A stretch of 64,000 nucleotides of DNA from Parafilimonas terrae (GTDB lineage Bacteria > Bacteroidota > Bacteroidia > Chitinophagales > Chitinophagaceae): contig NZ_FOXQ01000011.1 of assembly GCF_900115755.1 (NCBI RefSeq), positions 1 to 64,000 on the forward strand, read 5' to 3'. Positions 1 to 14,073 of this stretch are shown here, one piece after another. Positions within the stretch are counted from its first letter, which is position 1; each line of letters starts with the position of its first letter. The position numbers and the translations under genes were made by a program. The notes beneath the pieces were generated by a model that did not search any database, was not told the DNA's origin, and saw only the letters and a program-made list of their open reading frames with translations.

Positions 1-178
1 AACCGCCTGAATACATACAAACTGAAAATCTTCGCCAGCAAATCCGTTGGTCAATTTGCCTCGGCCTGAGGTGGTCAATTTAAACGGCGTACCCACCGTG
101 ACGAAGCTGGCAGCAATATTCCATTACATTTTGATGAATATGCCTGGGCTTATGATAAAGATGATAATTAATTAAAAA
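1..178. mobile_element. possible terminal remnant of an IS21-like element
   Basis: Two near-copies of the phrase GGTCAATTT occur at about 49-57 and 73-81, with CCTCGGCCTGAG between them and CGGCGTACC after the second. Arrays of TGGTCA-type repeats are what I recall at the ends of IS21-family elements in Bacteroidota. A reading frame enters from the left edge and stops at 67-69. The same frame reopens and ends at 169-171, with a tail that reads IPLHFDEYAWAYDKDDN. I do not recognise that peptide. No transposase lies inside the window, so the element, if real, lies to the left. The next 220 bases to the terminator at 401 hold no convincing gene. Confidence 0.3.
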
Positions 179-400
179 AAATGCAGCAAAGTTAGCCGCC
201 GGTTTCGGCTTCAGAATAAAGCCCAGCAGTTGTAAAGCCGGGCTGCCAAAAGACTACGGCATAAACACAGCCCCAACGCACAAAGCCTTCATTTATTCCG
301 TTTCCTTTTGGCTTGTAACATCGGCGGCTGATGGCAGGGCTTTCTTTTTTTCCTTTTTTCTTTTGGAAAATTATTATGATGAGATGCAAGATGTCTGAAT

Positions 401-427
401 AAAAAAGCCCTCTCAGGACTGAGAAGG
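401..427 (-). terminator. intrinsic terminator of the 249-residue protein gene
   Basis: Read on the minus strand, a stem of GCC-TTCTCAG pairs with CTGAGAG-GGC over a two-base loop and is followed directly by six T. It lies about 30 bases after the stop codon of the minus-strand gene at 457-1206, in the correct orientation. Confidence 0.75.
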
Positions 428-456
428 CGTGAGCAAATAACGATGCTAAAACTATT

Positions 457-1206
457 TTAAGCTACTTCCACAATTGACAGTGCATTATATGCACCATTCT
501 TCAAAGTGTATTGAACTCCGTTCACTTCCTGGAAGAACTCCACAGCAAACAGAAACACACTTGTACCAGTCCCGGCAGGTACGGCAGCAGGAGTAAGAGT
601 GACGTTTCCTGATGTCCCATCAATTGGAAGGTTTACAGCATTGGTATATTCAACACTTGAAGTACCTCCGGCAAAATCCACTTTTGCCCATGCTCCACGA
701 AGGGTTACATGAGTAGCACCAGTAGGAGCAGCAATATCATTGATCGGCACTAAGCCGGTAATACTTATAACACCAGTTGCAGTGTCAACACTGTAAGGTT
801 TGTAAAAAATGGATGAAATGATTGCATTGATATTGAAATCAAAATTTTTCAATTCATCAGTTGCACCAGCAGCAGCTATTCCGACACCAACTGTACGTTC
901 ACCCCTGGCAGAAGTAGTATCGTAATTTTTGATGATGGTCATTAACTGCGTTACCCTGGCAGTAATACGGTTATCAGATGCAGAAAGCATCAATGTGCGT
1001 ACTGTGTCACGAAGCAATTTCCCCGCAGATGCAGCAGCACCAAATTCAGAACCGTTCTCCCTTGTTCTTTGAAATGTAGGATCATTTGCAATGCGGTCAC
1101 CAGATACACCACTTTTTGTTTTCACAAGATGCCCATCCTGTGTTTTATAAAAGGTAAGTTCATCCAGAGTACCTTCTATTTTAATTATGCCTTTTAACTT
1201 AGCCAT
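457..1206 (-). CDS. conserved Bacteroidota protein of unknown function (249 aa)
   Basis: The product has 249 residues and starts MAKLKGIIKIEGTL, a start I associate with a family of uncharacterised Bacteroidota proteins. No signal peptide or membrane segment is visible. The N-terminal third is charged and polar, with RIANDPTFQRTRENGSEFG. The C-terminal half is rich in Thr, Val, Gly and Ala and looks like beta-sandwich structure. No catalytic motif is seen. It stands alone, with its own terminator downstream and a TAATTTTG box about 50 bases upstream of the ATG. I do not know its function. Secretion by a non-Sec route or a structural role is possible, but nothing in the sequence shows it. Confidence 0.8.
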   Translation of the reverse strand: MAKLKGIIKIEGTLDELTFYKTQDGHLVKTKSGVSGDRIANDPTFQRTRENGSEFGAAASAGKLLRDTVRTLMLSASDNRITARVTQLMTIIKNYDTTSARGERTVGVGIAAAGATDELKNFDFNINAIISSIFYKPYSVDTATGVISITGLVPINDIAAPTGATHVTLRGAWAKVDFAGGTSSVEYTNAVNLPIDGTSGNVTLTPAAVPAGTGTSVFLFAVEFFQEVNGVQYTLKNGAYNALSIVEVA

Positions 1207-1253
1207 TGTAAAAAATTTAATGGATTACGAATGATAAAATCAACATTCAAAAA

Positions 1254-1261
1254 CAAAATTA
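1254..1261 (-). promoter_or_regulatory. candidate -7 box for the 249-residue protein gene
   Basis: The minus strand reads TAATTTTG, matching the Bacteroidota -7 consensus TAnnTTTG. It lies 48 bases before the ATG at 1206. No convincing -33 TTG lies at the usual distance. Confidence 0.4.
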
Positions 1262-1358
1262 GAAATCGATGTAATTCCTTATTCACAAGCCTTCCAAACA
1301 GCTGTCATCTGTGCCGATTTTTCCAACTATAACTCTTTATTCCTGTTATTACTTTAAG

Positions 1359-1366
1359 TAAATTTG
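1359..1366 (+). promoter_or_regulatory. candidate -7 box for the small gene at 1429
   Basis: The sequence TAAATTTG fits TAnnTTTG exactly. Transcription would start near 1373 and leave a leader of about 55 bases. The -33 region (TTTATTCC near 1336) is only a weak match. Confidence 0.45.
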
Positions 1367-1428
1367 TACTGCTCAGTTATGCATCAAGTATAGCTGAAGT
1401 CAGATAAAGTATTAAATATTTAAAAGCG

Positions 1429-1620
1429 ATGGAGCGGATTTGTATATATCCCAAGGACATTCAGCTTGTAACCGGGAGAAGTGAAAGATACGGTCGGGAT
1501 CTTATCAAGAAAATTAAAGTGACTTTCAGTAAGAAAGACCATCACTTAGTTACTATTGAGGAGTTTTGCAACTACACCGGACTTTCTTCTCAGCAGGTTA
1601 AAGAGAAGCTGAAATACTAA
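1429..1620 (+). CDS. small conserved Bacteroidota protein, helix-rich, possible DNA-binding
   Basis: This is a 63-residue protein beginning MERICIYPKDIQLVTGRSER. The pattern YPKDIQ...TGRSERYGR and the later VTIEEFCNYTGLSSQQVKE looks like two short helix-turn-helix-like units, as in excisionase/MerR-type small proteins. I recognise it as a recurrent small Bacteroidota family with no assigned role. The protein is basic (many Lys and Arg). It is monocistronic with a promoter-like box upstream. Function is unknown; DNA binding is an inference from the fold-like pattern only. Confidence 0.7.
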   Translation: MERICIYPKDIQLVTGRSERYGRDLIKKIKVTFSKKDHHLVTIEEFCNYTGLSSQQVKEKLKY

Positions 1621-1692
1621 AACACATAACCGACTTTTTGACAGTCAATCATGTGTTATCATAGTTAGATGTTGGGCGGGGATATAAAATAC

Positions 1693-1843
1693 TTAAACTG
1701 CTTGCAATTCATAGCTCTTCACTTTGCCGGGAAACAGTTCTACAACCGGCACAAATGCTCGCAGTTCATATATCCTCTTGAATCTCTGCTGTAGTTGGTT
1801 CGATAATAGTACTTTTGGGGCTACTTACTTCACCGGAAAGCAT
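1693..1843 (-). pseudogene. broken gene fragment in two overlapping frames
   Basis: On the minus strand an ATG at 1843 opens 25 codons (MLSGEVSSPKSTIIEP...) that end at a TGA at 1766-1768. A second frame overlaps it and runs to a TAA at 1693-1695. It ends with a protein-like tail, RIYELRAFVPVVELFPGKVK and then SYELQAV. This second frame has no start codon of its own and is closed upstream by a TAA at 1825-1827. The arrangement is what a frameshift in a formerly single short gene would leave. I do not recognise the family. Confidence 0.35.
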
Positions 1844-1870
1844 ACTAATGTCTGCTTTCCGGTTTTTATT
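1833..1870 (+). terminator. intrinsic terminator hairpin
   Basis: CCGGAAAGC at 1833-1841 pairs perfectly with GCTTTCCGG at 1854-1862 and is followed by TTTTTATTTT. It lies 210 bases downstream of the 63-residue gene at 1429-1620, and no other plus-strand gene precedes it. The same bases overlap the start of the broken minus-strand frame. Confidence 0.65.
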
Positions 1871-2103
1871 TTGCTAAACCTCCGCTCCTGCGAATATTCT
1901 ATCAAATTTTATAAAACAATCCTGAAGATGTCAACACACTTTTAAACAAGCCGTTATTGTCTTTTGTACAATCAATATTGATACCAGATTGATGGAATAA
2001 TGGCTATCGAAAAAGGGTAAAATGAAAAAGTGAAACGGGCAGGAATAAAACTGGCTCTATTCTATATTCATTTTATTTAATTGAAATTTTTTAACCGCAT
2101 TTA

Positions 2104-2139
2104 TAAAAAAAATTTCCCGCCAGGAATGGCAGGAAATTT
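2104..2139 (-). terminator. intrinsic terminator of the hpf / FMN-paralogue transcript
   Basis: Read on the minus strand, AAATTTCCTGCCA and TGGCGGGAAATTT form a 13-bp stem with one mismatch and a short loop, then a run of eight T. It lies about 70 bases beyond the stop codon of the gene at 2207-3499. Confidence 0.75.
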
Positions 2140-2206
2140 TCAACCCTAAACCCTTAAAAAGCTAAGCTACGAACAAGTTCGCAAATATTCAAATGAATTT
2201 ACAAAA

Positions 2207-3499
2207 TCAGGAAAAACAGCACACGCAGGCCAATATATTAAACACTAAAAAACTCATGAACAAATGTGATATTTTAAGCCTGGGATAAATTCCATGCTGC
2301 TTTTTATTAATCGTTTTTAATTGCAAAGAATCAAGTTTGCGCAGTAAAGATGGCAGCGTTATTTGTTTCATGTTTACATAACCGAAGGTTCTCATTATCT
2401 CCATCGTGCTTCTTATTATTTTGCTATCTGCATTTTGCATGCGCACAAGTGGCGCAGCGCCTGCCTGCCTGCTATCTGCCGGGCTTTTCACCCTAAGCGC
2501 ATCCGCTCCCAATGCATATAGCTTTAATACATCAAATGCTGTATTAATATAGGCTGCTGCAATAATTTTAATTTCTTTTTCCAATCCGTACATCTCCAAA
2601 GTTTTTGACACAAACAACAATGCTTCGTATAAAGGCATGCTGGCGCTTTTTGAAGAATCTGGTGATGAATTATCTTCATTATCACAACCTTCTATAACTA
2701 TATAATCAGGAATAATACCTGTTTTGCGAAATGCATAGCATATTTCATGAACTACTTTTTTACTTGTCACGAAAAGCCTTACGCCAACAGGTTTTCCACC
2801 GGAAAGCTGTCGCAACGAATCTATGAACATTGCCATGCCTTCTGCGGTGCTGAAAGCTGTATGCATGGCAACTGATGAACCTGCAGCCTGGTTTGTAAAA
2901 TTATTTTTTGCGGAAGAAAATGAAGCAAGTTTCAGCTCTATCATTTTCACAAATGGTTGCATGGCATTTGCGCTGAACATCTCCGGGTTGAAGTTAGAAT
3001 TACTGTTGCTGCAGCCGGGATAGCCCGGCACAATCTGCCATATTATATCCTTTGCAAAACCGGCGTTAAGTTGATGTGAAGAATAATGCCGGTTCAATAC
3101 TTCCGCTTTCTCATGCGCATGAACAGGACTTTGTTTTGCATGAATAGTTTCGTTGCAAACTATACCTGACAAATAAGGCTGGGTGCAAAAGCTGTTGCCA
3201 AACAATACCGTAGGTTCTTCATAATTATTATTGCCTGAAAAAAATAAACTTTTATTACTATCCGGGTTATTATTTCCAGGTTTTAATTGCCGGCTTTCAT
3301 CTGCATTTTTAAAAAGAAACATTTTGTACTTTTTTCTCGCATAATGCATTATAATAAATAAAAAAGGAATTGCCAGAACCAACAACCAATGCAGGCCTGA
3401 ACCACCAAAATATTCCGACCTTATTATCACGCTGTTTATAAGCACAACAATTAAAAGAACGGCCAGAAATAACAGAGTGTATTTTTTATTTTGAGACAT
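2207..3499 (-). CDS. degenerate paralogue of FMN-binding glutamate synthase-type protein
   Basis: The 430-residue protein aligns by eye along most of its length with the 522-residue FMN glutamate synthase-type protein at 11684-13252. Shared stretches are TVLFGN.FC.QPY, DIIWQI..GY.GC, QPFVKMIELKL, LRQLSGGKPVG, MPLYEALLFV and AFDVLKLYALGA. Both have two N-terminal hydrophobic segments. The parts that should bind FMN and the iron-sulphur cluster are gone. The Gly-rich DGGEGGTGAAP is replaced by a Ser/Asp/Asn-rich stretch, the AHNTGEGG region is lost, and the C-x5-C-x4-C cluster segment is deleted. A third hydrophobic segment lies at the extreme C-terminus. The frame is fully open, so the loss of catalysis looks tolerated or selected. 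It follows hpf by 19 bases in one transcript. An enzymatic role is unlikely; a membrane-bound regulatory or scaffold role is inference. Confidence 0.8.
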   Translation of the reverse strand: MSQNKKYTLLFLAVLLIVVLINSVIIRSEYFGGSGLHWLLVLAIPFLFIIMHYARKKYKMFLFKNADESRQLKPGNNNPDSNKSLFFSGNNNYEEPTVLFGNSFCTQPYLSGIVCNETIHAKQSPVHAHEKAEVLNRHYSSHQLNAGFAKDIIWQIVPGYPGCSNSNSNFNPEMFSANAMQPFVKMIELKLASFSSAKNNFTNQAAGSSVAMHTAFSTAEGMAMFIDSLRQLSGGKPVGVRLFVTSKKVVHEICYAFRKTGIIPDYIVIEGCDNEDNSSPDSSKSASMPLYEALLFVSKTLEMYGLEKEIKIIAAAYINTAFDVLKLYALGADALRVKSPADSRQAGAAPLVRMQNADSKIIRSTMEIMRTFGYVNMKQITLPSLLRKLDSLQLKTINKKQHGIYPRLKISHLFMSFLVFNILACVCCFS

Positions 3500-3518
3500 T
3501 ATAATACGATTCGGTTAA

Positions 3519-3833
3519 CTATGCAGATGCTACTCTTTCGGCAAGCGACCTGCTTTTATTTCTTCTTAAAATTTCCTGCAGCACATCTACTGATTGTGAA
3601 ACGGCCCTGCGATAACCTATGCTGCTTTTTTTCACATAATGATCGTAGCCCGGCACCACCAATCTTATTTCACATAACCTGTTTTCATGCTTTTTGCTTG
3701 CGCCTTTTCTAAGAATTACGTTCGCACGAATAATATTATCACACTGGTCAAACAACTTTTTTACTTTTTCTTTTATGAATGCTTCGAGGTTTTTACCTGC
3801 TTTAAAATCTACTGATTTAATAATGATGTTCAT
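3519..3833 (-). CDS. hpf: ribosome hibernation promoting factor / RaiA family
   Basis: Starting at the ATG at 3831-3833, the product is 104 residues and begins MNIIIKSVDFKAGKNLEAFI. This is the usual short HPF pattern: beta strand, then helix, ending in the conserved basic region SIGYRRAVSQSVDVLQEILRR. An upstream in-frame start at 3902 would add 23 residues unlike the family, so I reject it. Proteins of this family bind the 30S decoding centre and silence or dimerise ribosomes in slow growth. It is the first gene after a promoter with four phased TAAT sites at 3922-3976 and is co-transcribed with the FMN-synthase paralogue. That placement suggests two-component control of ribosome hibernation. 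Confidence 0.88.
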   Translation of the reverse strand: MNIIIKSVDFKAGKNLEAFIKEKVKKLFDQCDNIIRANVILRKGASKKHENRLCEIRLVVPGYDHYVKKSSIGYRRAVSQSVDVLQEILRRNKSRSLAERVASA

Positions 3834-3921
3834 AAAGATCATTTTATAGTGAAGAAATATTTTAAGAGCAATAGCTAACCGCCGCAACTCAAATAGCGTC
3901 ACAACTTTTTCAGCTTTTATT

Positions 3922-3976
3922 CAAAGCTAAATTGCAGTTATTAGAAAGAGATTAAGAAGAAATTAGAAAGGGATTA
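3922..3976 (-). promoter_or_regulatory. promoter C with four 11-bp-phased TAAT half-sites (hpf operon)
   Basis: On the minus strand the four TAAT half-sites begin at 3976, 3965, 3954 and 3943, exactly 11 bp apart. The -7 box TAGCTTTG begins at 3929, exactly 14 bp after the last half-site. Promoters A (6124-6181) and B (11325-11382) have the identical geometry. Tandem direct half-sites one helical turn apart upstream of a -7 box are what OmpR/PhoB-type regulators bind. The adjacent regulator at 5370-6056 is the obvious candidate, by inference. Confidence 0.7.
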
Positions 3977-3978
3977 AA

Positions 3979-5370
3979 TTATTTTTGACGCACATTTTCG
4001 GCGATTGGAAGCTGAATTAAAAAAGTAGTGCCTTTGTTTACAATGGAGTTAACTTTTATCTGTCCTTTATGCAATTTAATAATGCGATATACAAGCGGCA
4101 GGCCTACGCCAAAACCTTTAGTTGATTTACTGTCTTCACTTCTGTAAAAAGGCTGAAAAATATTTTTCAGGTCGCTTTCAGCAATACCTTTTCCATCATC
4201 TTCAATAACAATATAAATTTCTTTTGGCTGAACAAGTAATTTTACTACTGCATGATGGTCCGGCGAATATTTACAGGAGTTGGAAACAACATTTTTTATA
4301 GCGGAAAGCAAAAGTTCGGCATTGCCAAACACCAATAACCTGTCTTCATTTTCCGGTAATCTTTCAAACTCAAGCTTCACGGAGTATTCTTTATCCACTT
4401 TTGTAATCTCGCCCGGCAACTGCATCAGTATTTCATCAATTCTTATTGAATTGATTTCAATACCGCCTTTAATGCCAGACACCGTTGCAAACTCCAATAA
4501 TGTTTGTGTAAGCTTGGCCAGGTTGCGCACATCCTGGTAAACAGATTGCATAATGCCGCGGTATTCTTTGGCCTCCCTGTTTCGCTGCAGCGATACTTCC
4601 AGCTGGCTTGAAACTGAAGTGAGTGGCGTGGTTAATTCATGAGATACAGAAGAAATAAACCTGCGCTGCATTTCAAAGCTTTGCTGCAAACGATCTAATA
4701 GCTCATTCAAGGTTTCTGTAAGATAATTCCATTCATCTCTTGCATTTCCCGATTTTATTCTGTGCTCAAGGTTTTGTGCTGAAATATCTTTTACATCATC
4801 TGCAATCTTCCTGATTGGCTTCAGCAATATTTTCGAAAACATATATCCCAATGTAAATGCTGCCAGGTTGCCGCATGCAAAGATTATAAGTAAAATAATT
4901 TTGAGATGGTGCAGGTTACGCTTGCCTTCTTCATCAAACGCAGCAGCTATAATAACAGGATGATTATTTATACCGGCATCATACCACGCAACGACTTCGC
5001 GGTTTCCATCGGTAAAAAAATATTCTTTATTAGTTCTTGCATTGTTCAGTATATCGGCTGTAACCTGCAAACTATCCTTTGGCATATCACTGTCAGTATA
5101 TATTCTTTCATTAAAAGAATTGTATGCCTGTATGGTTTTATCCTGCATTGGTATCACCGTAAGTGAATCTATCTTTTTCATCAGCGCCGGGTTAAAGGCG
5201 GCGGTATCATTCAGCATGTTAGCCGTGGTTACAGCCTGGTTTGTTAAATGCGCCTTCATGTTTTCCAGCCTTATGTCGTAAAAAAAATAATAGATGCAGC
5301 CGCAAAACAGCCCAAGCAATACACATAGTATAAGTGTAAACAATAAAGTTATTTTTATTCTTACATGCAT
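3979..5370 (-). CDS. two-component sensor histidine kinase (HAMP-HisKA-HATPase)
   Basis: The product has 463 residues from the ATG at 5368-5370. A first membrane helix lies at about 7-29, then an extracytoplasmic sensor region of about 125 residues, and a second helix at about 155-178. HAMP, HisKA and HATPase_c domains follow. The H-box reads SSVSHELTTPLTSV with the phospho-accepting His near residue 244. The N, G1 and G2 boxes are visible as NVVSNSCKYS, EDDGKGI and GFGVGLPL. The stop codon of the regulator overlaps this ATG by one base (TGATG), so the pair is translationally coupled. The sensor domain has no recognisable PAS or haem motif, so the signal is unknown. The surrounding genes hint at stress or low oxygen. 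Confidence 0.92.
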   Translation of the reverse strand: MHVRIKITLLFTLILCVLLGLFCGCIYYFFYDIRLENMKAHLTNQAVTTANMLNDTAAFNPALMKKIDSLTVIPMQDKTIQAYNSFNERIYTDSDMPKDSLQVTADILNNARTNKEYFFTDGNREVVAWYDAGINNHPVIIAAAFDEEGKRNLHHLKIILLIIFACGNLAAFTLGYMFSKILLKPIRKIADDVKDISAQNLEHRIKSGNARDEWNYLTETLNELLDRLQQSFEMQRRFISSVSHELTTPLTSVSSQLEVSLQRNREAKEYRGIMQSVYQDVRNLAKLTQTLLEFATVSGIKGGIEINSIRIDEILMQLPGEITKVDKEYSVKLEFERLPENEDRLLVFGNAELLLSAIKNVVSNSCKYSPDHHAVVKLLVQPKEIYIVIEDDGKGIAESDLKNIFQPFYRSEDSKSTKGFGVGLPLVYRIIKLHKGQIKVNSIVNKGTTFLIQLPIAENVRQK

Positions 5371-6056
5371 CAATGGTCTTTTAAAATATAGCCCATGCCC
5401 ACATGGGTTTGAATTAATTTATGTTCAAACTGTTTATCCACTTTATTGCGCAGGTAACTTATGTAAACATCAATAACATTTGTATTCGTTTCAAAATCCA
5501 CATCCCATACATTAATTGCTATATCCACTCTTGAGACAACCCTGTTTTTATTTCGAAGCAGGTATTCAAGCAATTGAAATTCTTTTGCAGTAAGATTTAT
5601 TGCTTTGCCATCTCTTTTTACCTCTTTGCTATCGAGGTTCATTTCAAGGTCGGCAGCTTTTAAAATGTTCCCTATCGGCAAACTTTGGTTCACCGTGCGT
5701 TTAAGCAATACCTTTATTTTTAACAGGAGCTCTTTAAATTCAAAAGGCTTTACCATATAATCATCAGCGCCGGATTCATAACCTTCAATCTTATCGTTCA
5801 GCGCACTCATGGAGGTAAGCATAAGCACAGGCACCTGCTGATTTTTAGCGCGAATGGCCTTGCACAAATCATAGCCATTCATGCCGGGAAGGTTTATATC
5901 GAGAATAATAAGGTCAAACTCTTTTGCGCAGAATAAGTGATAACCCAGTTTTCCATCATAAGCAACTTCAACGTTAAAGCCAATTTCATCAAGGCCGAAC
6001 TTTAAAGTATCGGCAATTTTTTTTTCGTCTTCAACAATTAATATTTTTCTTTCCAT
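5370..6056 (-). CDS. OmpR/PhoB-family response regulator
   Basis: The product has 228 residues with an N-terminal receiver domain. The acidic pocket is VEDE near residues 8-11, the phospho-acceptor Asp53 is in LIILDINLPG, and the switch Lys is in MVKPFEF. A C-terminal winged-helix DNA-binding domain follows, with LTAKEFQLLEYLLRN, VSRVDIAINVWD, TNVIDVYISYLR and the final wing VGMGYILKD. It is first in a two-gene operon with the kinase. Promoter A, divergent to it, carries the four-repeat operator, so autoregulation and control of the neighbouring operon are likely. Regulators of this family bind direct repeats about 11 bp apart as tandem dimers, matching the spacing seen at all three promoters. 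Confidence 0.93.
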   Translation of the reverse strand: MERKILIVEDEKKIADTLKFGLDEIGFNVEVAYDGKLGYHLFCAKEFDLIILDINLPGMNGYDLCKAIRAKNQQVPVLMLTSMSALNDKIEGYESGADDYMVKPFEFKELLLKIKVLLKRTVNQSLPIGNILKAADLEMNLDSKEVKRDGKAINLTAKEFQLLEYLLRNKNRVVSRVDIAINVWDVDFETNTNVIDVYISYLRNKVDKQFEHKLIQTHVGMGYILKDH

Positions 6057-6123
6057 ATATAAAAACAGCCATTATTTTAAGCAATTTACTTCTTCTCAAT
6101 TTAGGCGGAAAAAATCAACCCGG

Positions 6124-6181
6124 TTCTAATCATATTCTAATGCGCCGTTAATGCCAGGTTAATGGCCCGTACGTAGTTTTG
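6124..6181 (+). promoter_or_regulatory. promoter A with four 11-bp-phased TAAT half-sites (hemerythrin operon)
   Basis: TAAT half-sites begin at 6127, 6138, 6149 and 6160, and the -7 box TAGTTTTG begins at 6174. The geometry of 11, 11, 11 and 14 bp equals promoters B and C. Over about 58 bases A and B also share most flanking bases, including TTCTAATC, ATTCTAATG, TTAATGCC and GGTTAAT. The predicted leader of about 60 bases holds a perfect hairpin, GGTGAA-GTA-TTCACC. The response regulator is transcribed away from this same intergenic region. Confidence 0.75.
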
Positions 6182-6247
6182 AAAGTTATTATCCTGGTGA
6201 AGTATTCACCGTTAGGCCTGCATTGCAAAACAATTAAAAAGTTTGAT

Positions 6248-6874
6248 ATGAATACAATACAGCTAATCAATCTAAAAAACACTATTAGCGCTGAAAATTA
6301 TTTTACCACAAAAAATTTAAACGATGCTGATATTAGCCGCCATGAAATAAACGATGCAACTAACCGTAGAAATAACAATAAGCTTAATGCGGAAGTTCTT
6401 ATTGATTACATTATTAAAACGCATCATGCTTTTGCGAAAAAAAGTACAATTGCCATTTATAACCTTACGCAAAAAGTTGCGTATCGTCACAGTGAAAAAC
6501 ATATCGAATTAAAAAAGTTTAACGAAATCGCCTTTCTTTTCTTTCACCATTTGTTAAATCAAATGTTGAAAGAAGAGCAGTCCTTATTTCCCCATGTAAG
6601 GCAAACAATGAGTGAACTAAAATATCAAGGCAAAAACAATAATACTATTATACAACCTTTAAAAGAAAAGCTGCAATTGCAGCAGGCTGAACTTCAAAAA
6701 TCTTTTGATTACCTGAAAACCTTCAGGGAAATAACAAACGATTACAAACTACCGCCGGATGCATGCAGCTATTACACATCTTTATTTGACAAGATGAAAG
6801 AACTTGAAAGCGACCTCGTTATACATTTCCATTTGGAAGCCGATATTCTTTTCGGTTTATGTAACAGGAGCTAA
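6248..6874 (+). CDS. RIC/YtfE-like hemerythrin-domain di-iron protein
   Basis: From the ATG at 6248 the product is 208 residues. The C-terminal 150 residues match the hemerythrin-like domain of the iron-sulphur repair proteins ScdA/YtfE. His ligands lie in YIIKTHHAFAKK, LFFHHLLNQML and VIHFHLEADILFG, and Glu ligands in KEEQSLFPHV and HLEADIL. The usual N-terminal ScdA_N domain with its Cys pair is missing. About 60 residues without a recognised fold take its place. YtfE-type proteins repair nitrosylated or oxidised clusters and handle nitric oxide. Here the gene is first after promoter A and is followed 75 bases later by the SPFH gene. An earlier start at 6179 would overlap the promoter and is rejected. 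Confidence 0.82.
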   Translation: MNTIQLINLKNTISAENYFTTKNLNDADISRHEINDATNRRNNNKLNAEVLIDYIIKTHHAFAKKSTIAIYNLTQKVAYRHSEKHIELKKFNEIAFLFFHHLLNQMLKEEQSLFPHVRQTMSELKYQGKNNNTIIQPLKEKLQLQQAELQKSFDYLKTFREITNDYKLPPDACSYYTSLFDKMKELESDLVIHFHLEADILFGLCNRS

Positions 6875-6949
6875 AAAAGGATTAAACATAAATGCAATAA
6901 ATTTAACCATTATAAACCCTGCCACTATTAATAATTTAAACACGATTAA

Positions 6950-7861
6950 ATGACAACACAAGCTTTATCTGTTATCATAGCAGGAATAATATTTTTCTTT
7001 TTCCTTGGTATAAAAATAGTACGCCCCACACACAGGGGCTTAATTGAAAGATTGGGCAGGTATCACAAGTTTGCCACGCCAGGCTTTCACTGGATTATTC
7101 CTTTCATTGATAAAATGTATGCAGTAAACGTAACGGAACAAATGGTGGATGCACAGCCACAGGAAATTATTACCAACGATAACCTGAATGCAAGTGTGGA
7201 TGCACAGGTATATTTCAAGGTTATAGAAACAGAGGAAAGCGTAAAAAATTCGCAGTACAATGTAAATGATTACAGAAGGCAGATTGTAAACCTTGCCCGC
7301 ACCACGCTAAGGAATATTATCGGAACACTTACGCTAAGGTCTGCCAACAGTGAAAGAGGAAAGATAAACGCAGAGCTGCACAACACGCTTAGAAACGAAA
7401 CATCAAACTGGGGCATTGTAATTGTACGAACAGAATTAAAAGAAATAGACCCGCCGCGGGATGTGCAGGATACAATGAACAAAGTAGTGAAAGCAGAAAA
7501 TGAAAAAATAGCGGCTATTGATTATGCCACTGCAACGGAAACGGCAGCAGATGGCGTAAAACGCGCAAAGATTAAAGAAGCGGAAGGGCACAAACGTGCC
7601 AAAATACTGCATGCCGAAGGCGAAGCTGAAGCCATTATGCTGGTAAATGAAGCAGCTGATAAATATTTTACAGGCAATGCCCAGTTATTAAAAAAGCTGG
7701 AAACCGTTGAAGCCTCACTTAAGTCGAATGCAAAAATTGTGGTACCGGCGGGTTCTGAACTGGTAAATATTATCGGCGATATGGCGGGTGTATTACCCAT
7801 TAACACAACAAAAAATGAAAATGGAAAAAGCAAAACCACACCGCCCTCAACGCCTGTATAA
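6950..7861 (+). CDS. SPFH/Band 7 (slipin-type) membrane protein
   Basis: This 303-residue protein has one N-terminal membrane helix (about residues 5-22), then the SPFH domain with RPTHRGLIERLGRYHKFATP, GFHWIIPFID, DAQPQEIITNDN and NLARTTLRNIIGTLTL. A charged coiled coil follows (about 170-235, many Ala, Glu, Lys and Arg), as in QmcA and paraslipins. These proteins form large rings in the inner membrane and often work with membrane proteases. No NfeD partner gene is beside it here. The gap to the hemerythrin gene is 75 bases without a clear promoter or terminator, so co-transcription from promoter A is likely. Confidence 0.92.
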   Translation: MTTQALSVIIAGIIFFFFLGIKIVRPTHRGLIERLGRYHKFATPGFHWIIPFIDKMYAVNVTEQMVDAQPQEIITNDNLNASVDAQVYFKVIETEESVKNSQYNVNDYRRQIVNLARTTLRNIIGTLTLRSANSERGKINAELHNTLRNETSNWGIVIVRTELKEIDPPRDVQDTMNKVVKAENEKIAAIDYATATETAADGVKRAKIKEAEGHKRAKILHAEGEAEAIMLVNEAADKYFTGNAQLLKKLETVEASLKSNAKIVVPAGSELVNIIGDMAGVLPINTTKNENGKSKTTPPSTPV

Positions 7862-7914
7862 TTAGCAGGCATGATGTAAATATTTTAAATAACATGCATG
7901 AAAATCGCCTGCTA

Positions 7915-7945
7915 TTGAGATTGGATTTCTTAAATATTAAATTTG
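7915..7945 (+). promoter_or_regulatory. candidate promoter of the universal stress protein, near-leaderless
   Basis: TTG at 7915-7917, 20 bases of spacer and TAAATTTG at 7938-7945 match the Bacteroidota -33/-7 pair. The ATG begins at 7952, about where transcription would start, so the message would have almost no leader. Confidence 0.5.
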
Positions 7946-7951
7946 TATAAA

Positions 7952-8425
7952 ATGAAATTATTAATCGCACTTGACAATAATACCGGCGCTCAACATATTG
8001 CTGAAGCCGGTTATAAATTAGCGGAGGCATTGCATGCACATACTGTTTTGCTGCATGTAACTTCTGATGCAACCTATTACGCTTCTCCTAATTATTCACC
8101 TATATTGGGATATAATAATTTTAATAATGCAGAAGCTGTTCAAACAGATACCAGTGAAAAATTGAAAGTAGCTGCAGAAGATTACCTGGATAATGTAAAG
8201 TGGAGCCTCGGGGACAAAACAATTGAAACAGTTGTAAAGGAAGGGGATTATACAGCAAGCATACTTGAAACAGCAGAAGAAATAAAGGCAGATATGATAG
8301 TGATGGGAACGCACAGCCGCAAAGGGCTGGATAAAGTACTGCTGGGAAGCGTAGCTGAAAATGTTTTACATCATACAAACATACCGTTGTTCATTATTCC
8401 TGTAAAGCCTGCCGAAGCAGTATAA
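7952..8425 (+). CDS. universal stress protein, UspA family
   Basis: Starting at the ATG at 7952 the product is 157 residues with a single Usp domain. The N-terminus MKLLIALDNNTGA and the nucleotide-binding signature GTHSRKGLDKVLLGSVAENV (G-2x-G-9x-G-S/T pattern) are both intact. The end LFIIPVKP is typical, and the protein belongs to the ATP-binding UspA group. Such proteins rise in starvation, hypoxia and membrane stress. The gene lies 90 bases after the SPFH gene and 60 bases before aconitase, and has its own promoter-like sequence in addition to any read-through from promoter A. Confidence 0.92.
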   Translation: MKLLIALDNNTGAQHIAEAGYKLAEALHAHTVLLHVTSDATYYASPNYSPILGYNNFNNAEAVQTDTSEKLKVAAEDYLDNVKWSLGDKTIETVVKEGDYTASILETAEEIKADMIVMGTHSRKGLDKVLLGSVAENVLHHTNIPLFIIPVKPAEAV

Positions 8426-8485
8426 CAGTTTCGGCATACTGGCTTTATTTAATTTAACAGGCAGCGGTAATATAAACTGAATGCC

Positions 8486-11263
8486 ATGTCAAAAGATCTT
8501 TATCAAGCAAAAAAATTACTTACCACTAAAAACGGAACGTTTACTTACTATAGCCTTGCGGAATTGGAAAAGCAGGGGCATAATATCAGCAGGCTTCCTT
8601 TTTCCATTCGCATACTCTTAGAAAATGCCCTGCGAAATTTTGATGATTTTGCAGTAACAAAAGAAAATATAGAAACTATTCTTCACTGGCAGCCGGAAGG
8701 CTCAGATAAAGATATTCCCTTTAAACCTGCCCGTGTTTTGATGCAGGATTTTACCGGTGTTCCCGCCGTGGTGGATATTGCTTCGCTGCGTGCAGAAATA
8801 GCGCGAAAAGGGAAAAACCCTGATGAAATAAATCCGTTAATTCCTGTTGACCTTGTAATTGACCATTCGGTGCAGGTAGATTATTTTGGAACTGAATACG
8901 CTTACAACCGTAACATGGATGAAGAATATAAGCGTAATAAAGAACGCTACCAGTTTCTTAAATGGGCACAAAAATCATTTACCAATTTTAGCGTGGTGCC
9001 GCCGGGAATGGGCATTTGCCACCAGGTGAATCTTGAATACCTGTCAAAAGGTGTAATAGAACGCAACGGTAAAATTTTTCCTGATACATTAGTTGGCACC
9101 GATAGCCACACGCCTATGGTAAACGGTATTGGCGTAGTAGCCTGGGGCGTGGGCGGCATTGAAGCGGAAGCTGCTATTTTAGGCCAACCTATTTATTTTA
9201 TAACGCCACGGGTAATAGGGTTGAAATTAACCGGCAAGTTACCGCTGGGTTCTACCGCAACAGACCTGGTGCTTTCCATAGCTGAACTTTTAAGAAAGTA
9301 TGGCGTGGTTGGAAAATTTGTGGAAGTGTTTGGCCCCGGGCTCGACAATCTTTCTGTTCCCGACAGGGCTACAATTGGAAATATGTCGCCTGAATTTGGC
9401 TGCACCATCACCTATTTTCCGGTTGATGATAAAACCCTGGAATATATGCGCAGAAGTAACCGTTCGGAAGAGCAGGTGAAACTGGTAGAAGATTACTGCA
9501 AAACGAATATGCTGTGGCGTACCGGCAGTGAAGACATCCATTACACAGATATTATAGAGCTGGATATTTCAACAATAGAACCTTCCGTTGCCGGGCCAAA
9601 ACGCCCGCAGGATAAAATTTTATTAAAGAATTTCAAATCAAAATTTATAAGCCTGTTAGATGAAACCTATGGCCGTAAATACACAGAAGACAAACAATTA
9701 AGCCGGTGGATGGCTGAAGGTGGCAGCCAGCCCGTAATGCAGTCAAAAACCGAACTAACACCCGAACCGGAAATTGAAGAAACCGTTGTAAACGGAATGA
9801 AGAATGTGTGGGTAACCATTGGCGAAGAAAGCTTCATGCTTTCGGATGGCGCCGTAGCCATTGCTGCCATTACATCGTGCACCAATACTTCCAATCCTTT
9901 TGTAATGGTAGGTGCAGGTTTGGTGGCAAGAAAGGCAAGGGAACATGGATTGAAAACAAAACCCTGGGTAAAAACTTCATTGGCCCCGGGCTCCAAAGTG
10001 GTAACAGATTATCTTGAAAAGGCAGATTTATTAGACGACCTGGAAGCTATGCAGTTTCATACGGTAGGTTACGGATGTACTTCCTGCATTGGCAATTCCG
10101 GCCCATTGCCCAGTTTTGTTGCCAAAGCCGTGGAAGAGCATGATGTTGTAGTTGCTTCTGTTCTTTCGGGCAACAGGAATTTTGAGGCAAGAATTCATCC
10201 CCAGGTAAAAATGAATTTTTTAATGTCGCCAATGCTGGTGGTAGCGTATGCCATTGCCGGCCGGGTAGATGTGGATTTGATAAATGAACCCATAAGTTTT
10301 GATCCCAACCAGCAGCCTGTTTATCTAAAAGATATATGGCCTTCTGATGATGAAATAAATGATGTGCTGCACAAAGTGCTTTCGCCAAATGACTTTGCAA
10401 AAAATTATTCAGAAATCTTTGAAGGCAATGATATATGGAGAAATCTTGATGTGCCGGATGAAAGGTTATACAAGTGGGATGAAAGTTCCACTTACATTAA
10501 GGAGGTGTCGTTTTTCTACAATATTTCTAATGATGCGCCGCCTTTAAACGATATTCATGATGCAAGGGCTTTACTGGTGCTGGGCGATAGCATTACAACA
10601 GATCATATTTCCCCCGCCGGGCAGTTTAATGAATCTTCTTCTGCAGGCAAATACTTAATAAGCCGCGGTGTAAAAAGAGAGAATTTCAATTCGTATGGTT
10701 CAAGACGGGGAAATGATGAGGTAATGGTACGGGGCACTTTTGCCAATGTGCGCATAAAAAATAAACTGGTAAAGAAAGAAGGCGGCTTTACAAAATATTT
10801 TCCCACCGGCGAGGAACTTTCTGTATATGATGCTTCCATAAAATATAAACAAACACAAACGCCGTTAGTGGTGCTGGCTGGTAAAGAATATGGCAGCGGT
10901 TCATCAAGGGACTGGGCGGCAAAAGGCGCATTCCTGCTGGGTATTAAAGCCGTACTTGCAGAAAGTTATGAACGTATACACAGGAGCAACCTGGTAGGAA
11001 TGGGCGTTTTACCACTTCAATATAAACCAGGCGATACGGCAGAAAGTTTAGGCCTTACCGGCAATGAAGTATTTACTATATCGGGCATTGCTGAAGACAT
11101 AAAGCCGCTAAAAAAAGTGCAGGTGATTGCTAAAAAAGAAGATGGCAGCGAAATTAAATTTGAAGCAATTGCCCGGGTAGATTCAAAAATAGAAATAGAG
11201 TATTACAGAAACGGTGGAATATTACAATATGTATTAAGGCAGTTTTTAAAAAAGACAAGCTAA
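8486..11263 (+). CDS. acnA: aconitate hydratase (AcnA type)
   Basis: The 925-residue protein has the length and order of AcnA/IRP-type aconitase. The active-site segment GTDSHTPMVNGIGVVAWGVG is complete. The three [4Fe-4S] cysteines are visible at about residue 465 (ITSCTNTSNP) and residues 531 and 534 (YGCTSCIGNSGP). The swivel domain has GSRRGNDEVMVRGTFANVR and GKEYGSGSSRDWAAKGAFLLG. It interconverts citrate and isocitrate in the TCA cycle. No other TCA gene is near; instead it sits last in a stress-gene series behind promoter A. As an oxygen- and NO-labile Fe-S enzyme, it makes sense beside a RIC-type repair protein. That link is inference. Confidence 0.96.
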   Translation: MSKDLYQAKKLLTTKNGTFTYYSLAELEKQGHNISRLPFSIRILLENALRNFDDFAVTKENIETILHWQPEGSDKDIPFKPARVLMQDFTGVPAVVDIASLRAEIARKGKNPDEINPLIPVDLVIDHSVQVDYFGTEYAYNRNMDEEYKRNKERYQFLKWAQKSFTNFSVVPPGMGICHQVNLEYLSKGVIERNGKIFPDTLVGTDSHTPMVNGIGVVAWGVGGIEAEAAILGQPIYFITPRVIGLKLTGKLPLGSTATDLVLSIAELLRKYGVVGKFVEVFGPGLDNLSVPDRATIGNMSPEFGCTITYFPVDDKTLEYMRRSNRSEEQVKLVEDYCKTNMLWRTGSEDIHYTDIIELDISTIEPSVAGPKRPQDKILLKNFKSKFISLLDETYGRKYTEDKQLSRWMAEGGSQPVMQSKTELTPEPEIEETVVNGMKNVWVTIGEESFMLSDGAVAIAAITSCTNTSNPFVMVGAGLVARKAREHGLKTKPWVKTSLAPGSKVVTDYLEKADLLDDLEAMQFHTVGYGCTSCIGNSGPLPSFVAKAVEEHDVVVASVLSGNRNFEARIHPQVKMNFLMSPMLVVAYAIAGRVDVDLINEPISFDPNQQPVYLKDIWPSDDEINDVLHKVLSPNDFAKNYSEIFEGNDIWRNLDVPDERLYKWDESSTYIKEVSFFYNISNDAPPLNDIHDARALLVLGDSITTDHISPAGQFNESSSAGKYLISRGVKRENFNSYGSRRGNDEVMVRGTFANVRIKNKLVKKEGGFTKYFPTGEELSVYDASIKYKQTQTPLVVLAGKEYGSGSSRDWAAKGAFLLGIKAVLAESYERIHRSNLVGMGVLPLQYKPGDTAESLGLTGNEVFTISGIAEDIKPLKKVQVIAKKEDGSEIKFEAIARVDSKIEIEYYRNGGILQYVLRQFLKKTS

Positions 11264-11301
11264 TCACTTAAACAAATTATATCCTTCTTCCAAATGATTA
11301 T

Positions 11302-11382
11302 AGAATAAGATTAGAAGAATAAATTTCTAATCTTATTCTAATGTTTCCTTAATGCCGGGTTAATACCCGGTACCTAATTTTG
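11302..11382 (+). promoter_or_regulatory. promoter B with four phased TAAT half-sites plus an upstream inverted copy
   Basis: TAAT half-sites begin at 11328, 11339, 11350 and 11361, and the -7 box TAATTTTG begins at 11375, the same 11-11-11-14 spacing as promoters A and C. The first two half-sites are also present as a perfect 15-base inverted copy: AGAATAAGATTAGAA at 11302-11316 pairs with TTCTAATCTTATTCT at 11325-11339. That gives six half-sites in all. The inverted copy could also act as a hairpin ending the aconitase transcript, although no T run follows. Confidence 0.72.
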
Positions 11383-11472
11383 AATGAATGTAACAGGTAT
11401 GTAAAGCCGGCAGTTTTTTATTACAGGTGCCGGATTTTTCATCTATAAAACTATATACGAAGCGTTCAAGCC

Positions 11473-11613
11473 ATGACAAGCATTAAAAAATATTTTCAAT
11501 ATATCTTCTGCCGGCAATTCTTGCCCGGGGTGCTGTCATGCTATACCTGTATCTCTTACACTGGCAATCAACGATTGCCTTATTACCCAAATTTTAAGGA
11601 CTTTAATAAGTAA
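11473..11613 (+). CDS. possible 46-residue small protein
   Basis: An ATG at 11473 opens 46 codons starting MTSIKKYFQYIFCRQFLPG and ending KDFNK. The stop codon lies 17 bases before the terminator hairpin at 11630, so promoter, frame and terminator are arranged like a small gene. The peptide has three Cys and many aromatic residues but no recognised motif or strong membrane helix. No ribosome binding site is evident, which is normal for this phylum. The frame could be chance within a non-coding RNA. Confidence 0.25.
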   Translation: MTSIKKYFQYIFCRQFLPGVLSCYTCISYTGNQRLPYYPNFKDFNK

Positions 11614-11629
11614 TCCCCGCTCTGGTTTA

Positions 11630-11663
11630 AATACAGACCCGGGGGTGGGTTTTGTATTTTTTT
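11630..11663 (+). terminator. intrinsic terminator just upstream of the FMN synthase gene
   Basis: AATACA plus ACCC at 11630-11640 pair with GGGT at 11647-11650 plus TGTATT at 11653-11658, with small internal mismatches, then TTTTT. It lies 21 bases before the ATG at 11684, so it would have to be read through for the genes at 11684 and 13259 to be expressed from promoter B. Confidence 0.6.
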
Positions 11664-11683
11664 AATCATAAAAACTTATTATT

Positions 11684-13252
11684 ATGTCCAGCAAACGAAA
11701 AATTGTTTCGGCAAGCAATATTATTATAGTCTTACTTGTATTTGTCAATGTTATCATCTTACAGGCCGCCTTTATCGAAAATGAAAAATGGTATTGGGCG
11801 CTTGCCATCAGCCTGCCATTGTTAGTATTGGCTATTTTAAATATCCGTCAAAAAAAACATGCGATTTTACGCAACTTTCCCGTAATAGGTTATTTGCGTT
11901 ATCTTCTTGAATCAATACGGCCGGAGATAAGACAATACTTTTTTGAATCGGAGCTGGACGGAAAACCTTTTAGCCGCCGGCAGCGGTCCATCGTTTACCA
12001 GAGAGCAAAAAATGAAAAAGAAACGGTAGCTTTTGGTATGCAGGCAGACCCTAATGCGCCTGGTTTTGAGTGGGCTGCACATTCGGCGTATCCAAAAACT
12101 TTGCATGAAAAAGATTTGACGGTATTGATTGGCAACCAATACTGTCTGCAACCTTACAGGGCAAGCATTTATAATATTGGTGCAATGAGTTATGGCGCCC
12201 TCAGCAAAACAGCCATTATGGCCCTGAATAAGGGCGCAAAACTGGGTGGCTTTGCCCATAATACAGGAGAAGGCGGCATAAGCGAATATCATCTTGGTGG
12301 TGGCGATCTCATTTGGCAAATCGGTACAGGTTATTTTGGGTGCCGCGATGAAAAGGGAGAATTCCATCCACTTGCATTCCGTAAAAATGCATTGCGCCCG
12401 CAGGTAAAAATGATTGAGCTAAAATTATCGCAGGGTGCCAAGCCCGGGCATGGCGGCATTCTGCCTGCATCAAAAAATACAGAAGAAATAGCTGCCATAA
12501 GGCAGGTGCAGCCTCATACCGTGGTGCATTCACCCGCAGCGCATTCGGCATTTAATACGCCGGAAGGAATGGTGCAGTTTCTTCAATTACTCAGGGAATT
12601 ATCAGGTGGCAAACCGGTTGGCTTCAAAATATGTATTGGCGATAAGCAGGAATTTATTGATATCTGCCAGGCCATAAAAAACTCCGGTTGTATTCCTGAT
12701 TTTATTTCAGTTGATGGCGGTGAGGGCGGCACCGGCGCTGCACCGTTAGAATTTACCGATCACCTGGGTATGCCGTTATACGAAGCCCTCGCTTTTGTAA
12801 AGCGGGCATTGGATGAATACGGCTTGTCAGGCAGCATTAAAATAATTGCCGCGGGAAAAATAATTACGGCATTCGATATACTTAAGGCAATAGGGCTTGG
12901 CGCTTCTGCCTGTTACAGTGCAAGGGGAATGATGTTTGCGTTGGGCTGCATACAGGCATTAATATGCGATTCGGGTAAATGTCCTGTTGGCGTAGCCACA
13001 CAAAACCCGGCTTTATATAAAGGCCTCGATCCTGCTGATAAAGGCGTGCGGGTTTTCAATTATCACTTAAATACCATTAAAGCAACTAAAGAACTGATGG
13101 GTGCCTGCGGATTTGCACGCATTGAAAGCGTTCATGCTGCAAAGTTTTTTAGAAGAACAGACGCTCAAACAACCAGGAGCTTCGAAGAAATATATTTCAA
13201 CAAAATAAACGAGTTTAAACAACAACAAAATTTTGAGCCACAATTAAATTAA
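11684..13252 (+). CDS. FMN-binding glutamate synthase family protein, membrane-anchored
   Basis: The 522-residue protein has two N-terminal hydrophobic segments (about 9-30 and 37-53), then the central and FMN-binding domains of the glutamate synthase large subunit. Motifs include NIGAMSYGALSKTAI, GGFAHNTGEGG, RPQVKMIELKLSQGAKPGHG, SVDGGEGGTGAAP and the [3Fe-4S] pattern C-x5-C-x4-C at Cys422, Cys428 and Cys433 (KCPVGVATQNP). It lacks the amidotransferase domain of GltB, so it is one of the short, stand-alone FMN proteins whose substrate is unproven. It follows promoter B and is 6 bases from the GreA-like gene. An inactive-looking paralogue lies at 2207-3499 under promoter C. Confidence 0.9.
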   Translation: MSSKRKIVSASNIIIVLLVFVNVIILQAAFIENEKWYWALAISLPLLVLAILNIRQKKHAILRNFPVIGYLRYLLESIRPEIRQYFFESELDGKPFSRRQRSIVYQRAKNEKETVAFGMQADPNAPGFEWAAHSAYPKTLHEKDLTVLIGNQYCLQPYRASIYNIGAMSYGALSKTAIMALNKGAKLGGFAHNTGEGGISEYHLGGGDLIWQIGTGYFGCRDEKGEFHPLAFRKNALRPQVKMIELKLSQGAKPGHGGILPASKNTEEIAAIRQVQPHTVVHSPAAHSAFNTPEGMVQFLQLLRELSGGKPVGFKICIGDKQEFIDICQAIKNSGCIPDFISVDGGEGGTGAAPLEFTDHLGMPLYEALAFVKRALDEYGLSGSIKIIAAGKIITAFDILKAIGLGASACYSARGMMFALGCIQALICDSGKCPVGVATQNPALYKGLDPADKGVRVFNYHLNTIKATKELMGACGFARIESVHAAKFFRRTDAQTTRSFEEIYFNKINEFKQQQNFEPQLN

Positions 13253-13258
13253 AACAAA

Positions 13259-13672
13259 ATGAAGAAGATAAAAGACACGCTTGTTTTAAGACAAGATGAT
13301 TATGCATTATTGATTTCCTATCTGAACCATGCCCGCAGAAATTCAAGTATTGACAGGCAGAATGCAGATGAGCTTACCGCTGAGTTAAAGAAAGCAACCC
13401 TTGTGGACAATGCTGACTTTCCACCCGATGTGGTTGGGTTAAATTCTAAAGTCCGGATAAAAACAGACGATAAAAATGAGGAAATGGAATTGATGATTGT
13501 TACGCCTGATAAAGCAAATATCAAAGAGAAAAAAATTTCCATCATGGCGCCAATAGGAACAGCTTTAATTGGTTTCCGCGAGGGACAAAAAGTAAAATGG
13601 AAAGTACCATCAGGCCATAAAACATTTACCATTTTAAATGTTATGAATGACTATGGCGGAAATCCTGCATAA
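13259..13672 (+). CDS. GreA/GreB C-terminal-type protein, Rnk-like regulator
   Basis: The 137-residue protein has a short helical N-terminus (LVLRQDDYALLISYLNHARR), then the FKBP-like GreA/GreB C-terminal domain. That domain is recognisable from VVGLNSKVRIKTDD, ELMIVTPDKANIKEKKISIMAPIGTALIG and GQKVKWKVPSG. The long coiled coil of true GreA is absent, as in Rnk (regulator of nucleoside diphosphate kinase). Rnk-type proteins contact RNA polymerase near the secondary channel. It lies 6 bases after the FMN synthase gene, in the same transcript, and a strong terminator follows 65 bases later. Its presence fits a stress-adaptation regulon. Confidence 0.85.
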   Translation: MKKIKDTLVLRQDDYALLISYLNHARRNSSIDRQNADELTAELKKATLVDNADFPPDVVGLNSKVRIKTDDKNEEMELMIVTPDKANIKEKKISIMAPIGTALIGFREGQKVKWKVPSGHKTFTILNVMNDYGGNPA

Positions 13673-13738
13673 TAAACTGTTATCGGACGTCTGTCTGCAG
13701 CGGGCAGAATTCAAATATCGCCCAGCAGCGGACCGGGC

Positions 13739-13770
13739 AAAGCTGTTCAATATTGAACAGCTTTTGCTTT
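13739..13770 (+). terminator. intrinsic terminator after the Rnk-like gene
   Basis: AAAGCTGTTCAA and TTGAACAGCTTT form a perfect 12-bp stem with only TA in the loop centre, followed by TTGCTTTG. The remaining 300 bases to the next gene at 14074 are AT-rich; TAACCTTG near 14036 is an imperfect -7 box and nothing else is recognised. Confidence 0.75.
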
Positions 13771-14073
13771 GTTATGTAACTACAAAATTTAATCAATAGT
13801 TTGCGGCGAACCCTGCAAAGTGTTTAAGAACTGATAAACAAACACAACCCTTGCCGCATATTTTGTAAACCGCTAACCTGCGTTCAAACTGGCTATATAC
13901 ATATGCACATATATTTATAGTTTAATATAAATATTTAAAAAATGTTAGGCTTTTATACCTAATCTATTATTTTATTCAGGAATTTAATTACAACCTAATG
14001 ATTTTAGTAAACAGGGATAAAAAAGTTAATTGCTGTAACCTTGTAAGACCTTCTTTAATTAAATCTGTATCTG

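Follow-up and report, generated by a model that had tools for sequence, protein, structure and literature searches.

Three promoters packed into 7.5 kb of the 64,000-nucleotide stretch of DNA analysed here (the window) share the same layout, in which four direct TAAT repeats at 11-bp intervals precede a -7 box. We propose that these arrays, designated A, B and C, are the operators of the OmpR-type response regulator encoded at 5370-6056, four molecules of which would bind head to tail and switch the target genes on together; we assign this reading a probability of about 0.87. Bacteroidota are a major phylum of soils, waters and the gut, for which, to our knowledge, few response-regulator operators have been characterised. 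The elements and genes concerned are as follows.

3519-3902, minus strand: HPF/S30AE ribosome hibernation protein, the gene behind promoter C (Pfam; NCBIfam yfiA below cut-off)
3922-3929, minus strand: -7 box of promoter C, TAGCTTTG (sequence match)
3940-3979, minus strand: array C, four half-sites (minus-strand TAAT at 3976, 3965, 3954 and 3943), immediately past the kinase stop codon
3979-5373, minus strand: sensor histidine kinase (HisKA, HATPase_c; Pfam), adjoining the regulator gene
5370-6056, minus strand: OmpR-type response regulator, 228 amino acids, recognition helix NVIDVYISYLRNK (receiver and Trans_reg_C domains; Pfam/NCBIfam)
5454-5456, minus strand: codon for Tyr201 of the regulator, the position whose Tyr/Phe state predicts CTAAT or TTAAT (operator-regulator comparison)
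6124-6163, plus strand: array A, four half-sites at 11 bp (TAAT at 6127, 6138, 6149 and 6160), 5' of the hemerythrin-like gene, with the regulator gene divergent
6174-6181, plus strand: -7 box of promoter A, TAGTTTTG (sequence match to TAnnTTTG)
6248-6874, plus strand: hemerythrin-like protein, nearest to the RIC/YtfE iron-sulfur repair proteins, the gene behind promoter A (Pfam/NCBIfam, below cut-off)
6950-11263, plus strand: Band_7/SPFH protein, universal stress protein (Usp) and aconitase AcnA, 3' of the hemerythrin-like gene (Pfam, NCBIfam)
11325-11364, plus strand: array B, four half-sites (TAAT at 11328, 11339, 11350 and 11361), with a possible counterpart (1 mismatch) in the related genome G045
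11375-11382, plus strand: -7 box of promoter B, TAATTTTG (sequence match)
11684-13252, plus strand: glutamate-synthase-domain protein, the first long same-strand gene past promoter B (Pfam)

The spacing of 11-11-11-14 bp put forward by the sequence-only reading was borne out, with every TAAT and box coordinate, when the sequence was re-read at all three promoters. From array through box, the sites extend over 3922-3977 (C, minus strand), 6126-6181 (A, plus strand) and 11327-11382 (B, plus strand), and each fits YTAATN6YTAATN6YTAATN6YTAATN10TANNTTTG with 0 mismatches. With up to 3 mismatches allowed, this pattern was matched three times in the window and 0 times in 100 shuffles; in the whole genome (4,985,410 bases, 44 contigs) A, B and C were the sole matches, and a reversed-pattern control gave 0. 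When the genome was scanned at the same tolerance for the array without the box, 31 matches were found against 34 in the control, showing no enrichment beyond the three sites, while three repeats plus the box gave 9 matches against 8, with fewer than 3 mismatches only at A, B and C. Since there were no further genome matches and both relaxed scans remained at control level, A, B and C form a local regulon of three promoters around one regulator-kinase pair.

TAAT, originally taken as the half-site, is exact at all positions, but the sequence logo revealed a longer conserved unit, TTYTAAT followed by four bases. The TT preceding the half-site is strongest at the two distal repeats, though it was absent from the search pattern, and the logo units as a whole are stronger in these two repeats and weaker in the two nearest the box. 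The first bases of the half-sites are mixed in the window (C C T T in both A and B, T C T C in C). All three sites carry the TAnnTTTG -7 box of Bacteroidota primary-sigma promoters, the consensus reported for the primary sigma factor in the excerpts available (PMC7366714). Arrays A and B were correctly noted to have flanking bases in common; because 58 of 90 aligned bases are alike, the two may be related by duplication, while C agrees with A at 23 of 90 bases. A 17-pair inverted repeat at 11301-11340 places mirrored copies of the first two array-B half-sites just upstream of the array, which may allow array B to be read from the opposite side too.

Arrays A and C stay in place in related genera while many other promoter bases differ. 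Array A lies ahead of the hemerythrin gene in G045 (0 mismatches), G178 (0) and G064 (2), and array C past the kinase gene in G045 (0) and G178 (1), where A and C are on two contigs. In G045, whose regulator is 92% identical to that of the window and which has A and C at the same genes, a third site (1 mismatch) lies 5.1 kb past the aconitase gene with other genes intervening; array B of the window lies 64 bp past its aconitase gene. Gene order 3' of the hemerythrin-like gene is partly retained in G045 and G064, and the G045 neighbourhood adds two carboxymuconolactone-decarboxylase-family proteins and an FAD/NAD oxidoreductase.

The site is also widespread beyond these genomes. Counting the window genome itself in each case, it was found at up to 2 mismatches in 75 of 294 Chitinophagaceae genomes (reversed-pattern match in 1), in 47 of 345 genomes at class level (control in 4) and, with 1 mismatch, in 14 of 296 genomes of a phylum sample (control in 2). 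An exact scan with one genome per species returned at least 120 stretches and, among the matches listed, 117 were from Bacteroidota, 2 from Ignavibacteriota and 1 was filed as Pseudomonadota. Such a long, rigid motif can be scanned for in any genome with few false matches, and could provide target genes for many uncharacterised two-component systems. With identical site sequences collapsed to one, there were 226 distinct sites, and the first genes past 221 of them fell into 49 clusters, labelled by one scanned representative each: 76 of these targets were assigned to outer membrane efflux proteins, 35 to Usp, 17 to the sulfate permease family and 14 to TPR proteins; no Pfam match was obtained for two clusters, with 11 and 10 members. 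Because the targets span efflux, Usp, permease, TPR and other proteins, the operator is tied to a regulator family rather than to a single pathway. The expectation of stress-gene targets fits the window and the Usp genes, but elsewhere the sites precede efflux proteins, the sulfate permease family and others.

Two further observations were made in these scans. The first long gene often has an in-frame start codon just 5-20 bases past the -7 box (e.g. L164, L173, L179), a hint, from a choice of starts biased to early codons, that some of these mRNAs may be nearly leaderless. Arrays with purine-start half-sites (RTAAT/RTAAC) at 11 bp and with the same gap to TAnnTTTG were present in 15 of the 294 family genomes against 4 in the control (L387-L402). 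The ten proteins flanking seven of these places include alkaline phosphatase and TonB-dependent receptor parts, neighbours that point to another regulator, and the purine-start arrays were set aside from the YTAAT set; our guess is that they are possibly the sites of this other regulator, perhaps a Bacteroidota PhoB operator.

Sites and regulator occur together. Among the 294 genomes, 56 possess both a site and a regulator at least 60% identical to that of the window, 186 neither, 33 the regulator only and 19 the site only (Fisher p 5e-21). The anticipated co-occurrence with regulator orthologues is upheld by this test, but 19 of the 75 site-bearing genomes lack a regulator of at least 60% identity, so the proposal does not come cleanly through the refuting condition that the sequence-only reading had set. 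In 9 of the 19, a remoter OmpR-type regulator (40-54% identical) adjoins the site; among the other ten, one has a 31% identical regulator 1.4 kb off and one a 46% identical regulator at 4.6 kb, and eight are unexplained. When regulators were gathered by protein alone (150 rows used, among the matches listed), sites with no more than 2 mismatches were found within 3 kb of 54 of 85 regulators of at least 66% identity (31 of the 85 had none), of 7 of 27 at 60-65% and of 2 of 38 at 50-59%. Seen from the sites, 171 of 217 testable ones (those whose upstream DNA extends to 2.3 kb or more, 217 of 263 kept) have a regulator within 3.5 kb, 170 of them with both checked winged-helix landmarks, and 46 of the 217 have none within this distance. 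By our own reckoning, roughly 1-2% would have such a neighbour by chance, since 5-16 OmpR-type domains per genome were counted in the 15 genomes checked. In the 185 site-regulator pairs the regulator is upstream on the same strand in 147, divergent in 30 and otherwise placed in 8, and two main layouts emerge: regulator, kinase, site and target in succession, or a regulator and target that diverge.

The geometry of the arrays was equally constrained. At 103 regulator loci, in a test that is partly circular (63 of the loci were fetched via the motif, and three regulators are counted twice), 80 score at least 22 of 26 at a period of 11 and a gap of 10, and none do so at periods of 9, 10, 12 or 13 or in shuffles. 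The 11-bp period thus stands alone among the periods of 9-13 tried, as in the direct-repeat operators of the OmpR/PhoB class. A gap of 10 is favoured, with 60 loci scoring at least 24 of 26 versus 9 at a gap of 9 and 5 at a gap of 11. For regulators of at least 60% identity fetched as lacking a close site (40 loci), 18 loci score 22-23 of 26, and 9 score 18 or less, corresponding to no recognisable array. Most fetched regions entered through the motif; the motif-blind part consists of the family scan, the protein-only search and the genome co-occurrence.

The spelling of the half-sites follows a single residue of the recognition helix. Where position 201 is Tyr, CTAAT occurs at least once in all 111 sites; where it is Phe, 63 of 65 sites lack it, and the two exceptions (L135, L208) each carry one C. 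The first 156 pairs served to define this rule, and the class scan then contributed 22 further Tyr/Phe pairs (20 regulators), all 22 of which obeyed it; 9 of the 185 pairs, with residues other than Tyr or Phe, were left out (five Lys and one each of Ile, Leu, Pro and gap; the protein with Pro, L436, is apparently misaligned). In leave-one-out prediction (regulators with more than 60 or more than 70 gaps left out, depending on the analysis, here and in the tree), residue 201 reached a balanced accuracy of 0.968, against 0.770 for the runner-up among 228 columns. It was the best column for half-site 1 (0.889), half-site 2 (0.904) and half-site 4 (0.812); at half-site 3 it lay outside the best four, and there the 111 Tyr-type sites carry T in 61 cases and C in 46. 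The rule is valid inside both the efflux and the Usp target groups, and 11 of the 22 genomes compared, from three genera, hold Tyr-type as well as Phe-type systems, each regulator adjoining its matching operator. On the regulator tree about six changes per trait were counted. Independent pairs numbered 6 across all branches and 3 across the supported ones, none of them in the opposite direction; the association is consistent but involves few events, and three supported pairs cannot reach significance.

The regulator helix aligns gap-free with that of M. tuberculosis PhoP, which places Tyr201 at the position of PhoP Tyr220, a residue that hydrogen-bonds cytosine in the crystal according to the excerpts available (PMC4832192). 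This correspondence gives the residue-base rule structural weight, and by analogy the half-site cytosine would be the base contacted by Tyr201. Within the window genome, the helix is unique to the regulator at 5370-6056 among the 6 readable of the 7 OmpR-type regulators; position 201 is R, K, N, N and N in the five others read (5 of 6, with the sixth, L318, left out). Together, genome uniqueness, proximity within 7.5 kb, co-occurrence, operon adjacency and the residue-base match support the proposal of the sequence-only reading that this regulator binds all three arrays, and make direct binding a well supported prediction.

We consider it probable that a large family of Bacteroidota two-component systems follows one plan, in which four TTYTAAT units at 11 bp leave a gap of about 10 bases before the -7 box; at half-sites 1, 2 and 4, Tyr or Phe at position 201 would determine whether CTAAT may occur or TTAAT alone is used, thereby separating parallel systems within a cell. 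If true, this would amount to a readable protein-DNA code from which regulator targets could be predicted genome by genome, and the Tyr/Phe-to-C/T rule would offer a one-residue handle on how related regulators avoid cross-talk. The class scan also turned up four related genomes (L440-L443) whose site-adjoining regulators have Lys at position 201 and the helix DVHIRKLREK; in three of these genomes the site reads TTAAT-TTAAT-CTAAC-CTAAT, a hint that the rule may reach residues beyond Tyr and Phe.

Regulators of the OmpR/PhoB class typically bind direct repeats: the pho box has 7-bp repeats with an 11-bp period close to the core promoter, and the core of the ArcA site is TTAA-like. AgrR is presumably to be counted among the heavy-metal regulators, and we take Tyr201 of the window's regulator to occupy the position of PhoB Arg201, in the same numbering. 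The window sites have the 7-4-7 direct repeats, the tandem subunits and the nearness to the core promoter in common with PhoB and its pho box; they differ in sequence, in their four units and in their Bacteroidota -7 box. PhoB Arg201 is described as contacting guanine in the part of the source available (PMC3973317). PhoB identity was rejected for the regulator, which scores below both model cut-offs (177.8 of 296.2 for NCBIfam PhoB, 176.9 of 270 for Bacteroides PhoB). M. tuberculosis PhoP (TCACAGC-N4) is alike in its strict 11-bp period, tandem binding and Tyr at the same helix position, and is reported to bind DNA with three or four motifs more tightly than DNA with two; its motif is a different one, and its consensus site in the available text is a two-motif repeat, whereas the window sites have four units and a -7 box at a favoured distance (PMC4832192). 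For E. coli ArcA, 92 of 158 sites contain direct repeats numbering three to five, for the most part 11 bp apart, in the excerpts available (PMC3798270). ArcA sites vary in number and spacing of repeats and serve a global regulon, while sites of the window type adjoin their regulator and precede a -7 box. The nearest case that we found in Bacteroidota, judged from partial texts, is PhoP of Riemerella anatipestifer, with 583 peaks and an ArcA-like DAP-seq motif, TTTAACA; the portions available describe no four-repeat array linked to a -7 box (PMC9603813).

The nearest NCBIfam model is that of the CusR/CopR/AgrR heavy-metal regulators (TIGR01387), for which the window regulator scores 238.7 bits and an efflux-adjoining relative 254.0, with a cut-off of 279.2. 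A CusR/CopR-type assignment was rejected on this score and because all three promoters carry four direct repeats, not an inverted repeat; AgrR reads an inverted repeat according to the available text (PMC7380067). RprY was likewise rejected (NF051850, 134.4 of 370 bits, below cut-off). Among the matches listed in openly licensed literature, parts of which were available, no description of the four-repeat operator or of the Tyr/Phe rule was found. The operator appears to be a new variation on the known direct-repeat sites of the OmpR/PhoB class.

Both regulator domains are over their Pfam cut-offs (PF00072, 104.4 bits; PF00486, 88.7 bits), and D10, E11, D53, T81 and K103, which we take to be the phospho-acceptor aspartate and the conserved receiver residues, are all present; the HAMP domain of the kinase falls slightly under the Pfam cut-off. 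The regulator would be controlled at the arrays by phosphorylation, its kinase partner being the predicted donor. Each 11-bp turn would take up one of four regulator molecules, stacked head to tail along a single face of the DNA, and every molecule would read its TTYTAAT unit through the major groove. As the logo is stronger in the distal than in the proximal repeats, the molecules may be arranged as two tandem dimers, with the distal half-site pair as the stronger anchor and the proximal pair, at approximately the position of the -33 element, touching the primary RNA polymerase on the TAnnTTTG box in a PhoB-like manner. HPF, the hemerythrin-like protein with the SPFH protein, Usp and aconitase behind it, and the output of promoter B would be co-induced. 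Judged by these targets, the trigger may be damage to iron-sulfur proteins or the onset of dormancy.

That binding activates rather than represses is what we infer from the position and geometry of the arrays. A regulator that occupies the same sites but covers the -33 region and blocks the polymerase until a signal relieves it is improbable, although some observations would suit it: the proximal repeats lie at about the -33 element, and ArcA, a tandem-repeat regulator, has repressed as well as activated operons in the available text (PMC3798270). No -33 consensus was found beside the array in the logo of the sites, which is not diagnostic, as a -33 motif has likewise escaped identification in Flavobacterium johnsoniae according to the excerpts available (PMC7366714). 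A repressor, however, would need no fixed gap, whereas the array-to-box gap favours 10, and in many cases the regulator operon immediately precedes the site in the same orientation. The favoured distance makes activation at such promoters directly testable.

It is very unlikely that the arrays are recognised by some other protein, be it a different transcription factor or a nucleoid protein, with the regulator a mere neighbour or target. About one fifth of the testable sites (46 of 217) lack such a regulator within 3.5 kb, as this would allow, but the spelling tracks the base-contacting position of the neighbouring regulator even between paralogues in one genome. The same tracking speaks against the arrays being an extended promoter for an alternative sigma factor that works with no activator, to which we give still less credence: the favoured distance to the -7 box would suit such a promoter, yet four 11-bp repeats cover 38 bp, more than sigma factors usually contact, and the box itself matches the primary-sigma box reported in the available text (PMC7366714). 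The similarity of A and B at 58 of 90 bases would accord with chance or plain duplication, with C a coincidence, but this explanation is next to negligible given that C is unlike A outside the repeats (23 of 90), that no matches arise in shuffles or elsewhere in the genome, and that A and C recur in other genomes. Activation by the regulator at 5370-6056 is the reading retained here.

From left to right, the genes are those for a glutamate-synthase-domain protein, HPF, kinase, regulator, hemerythrin-like protein, SPFH protein, Usp and AcnA, beyond which lie promoter B, a second glutamate-synthase-domain protein and a GreA/GreB-like protein. The hemerythrin-like protein is under both cut-offs (Pfam Hemerythrin, 23.6 of 25.3; TIGR03652, 108.4 of 204.7), and the HPF gene, to judge from its similarity to relatives, more likely starts at an ATG near 3830. 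The SPFH, Usp and AcnA genes are possibly carried on one transcript from promoter A.

Behind promoter B, the expected transcript begins as follows.

11384-11439, plus strand: expected promoter-B transcript start, TAACAGGTATGTAA, followed by a putative hairpin and a run of T (sequence, folding)

The same 14-mer, with a possible hairpin and T run, is also found past the third site of G045 (L090, 15872-15918), ahead of any long gene. Promoter B might therefore conceivably give a short regulated RNA or a leader, an idea that stays weak because the folding z-scores of the expected transcript were -1.8 (window), -1.4 (G045) and +1.1 (a shorter window piece). An Rfam scan of window positions 1-20000 gave no match. 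The window genome and G045 each contain a single exact copy of the 14-mer, both at these promoters; with 1 mismatch allowed, 33 matches were counted in six genomes against 23 in the control. Finally, glutamate-synthase-domain proteins are encoded on both flanks of the regulon (2207-3499, a partial profile match, and 11684-13252).
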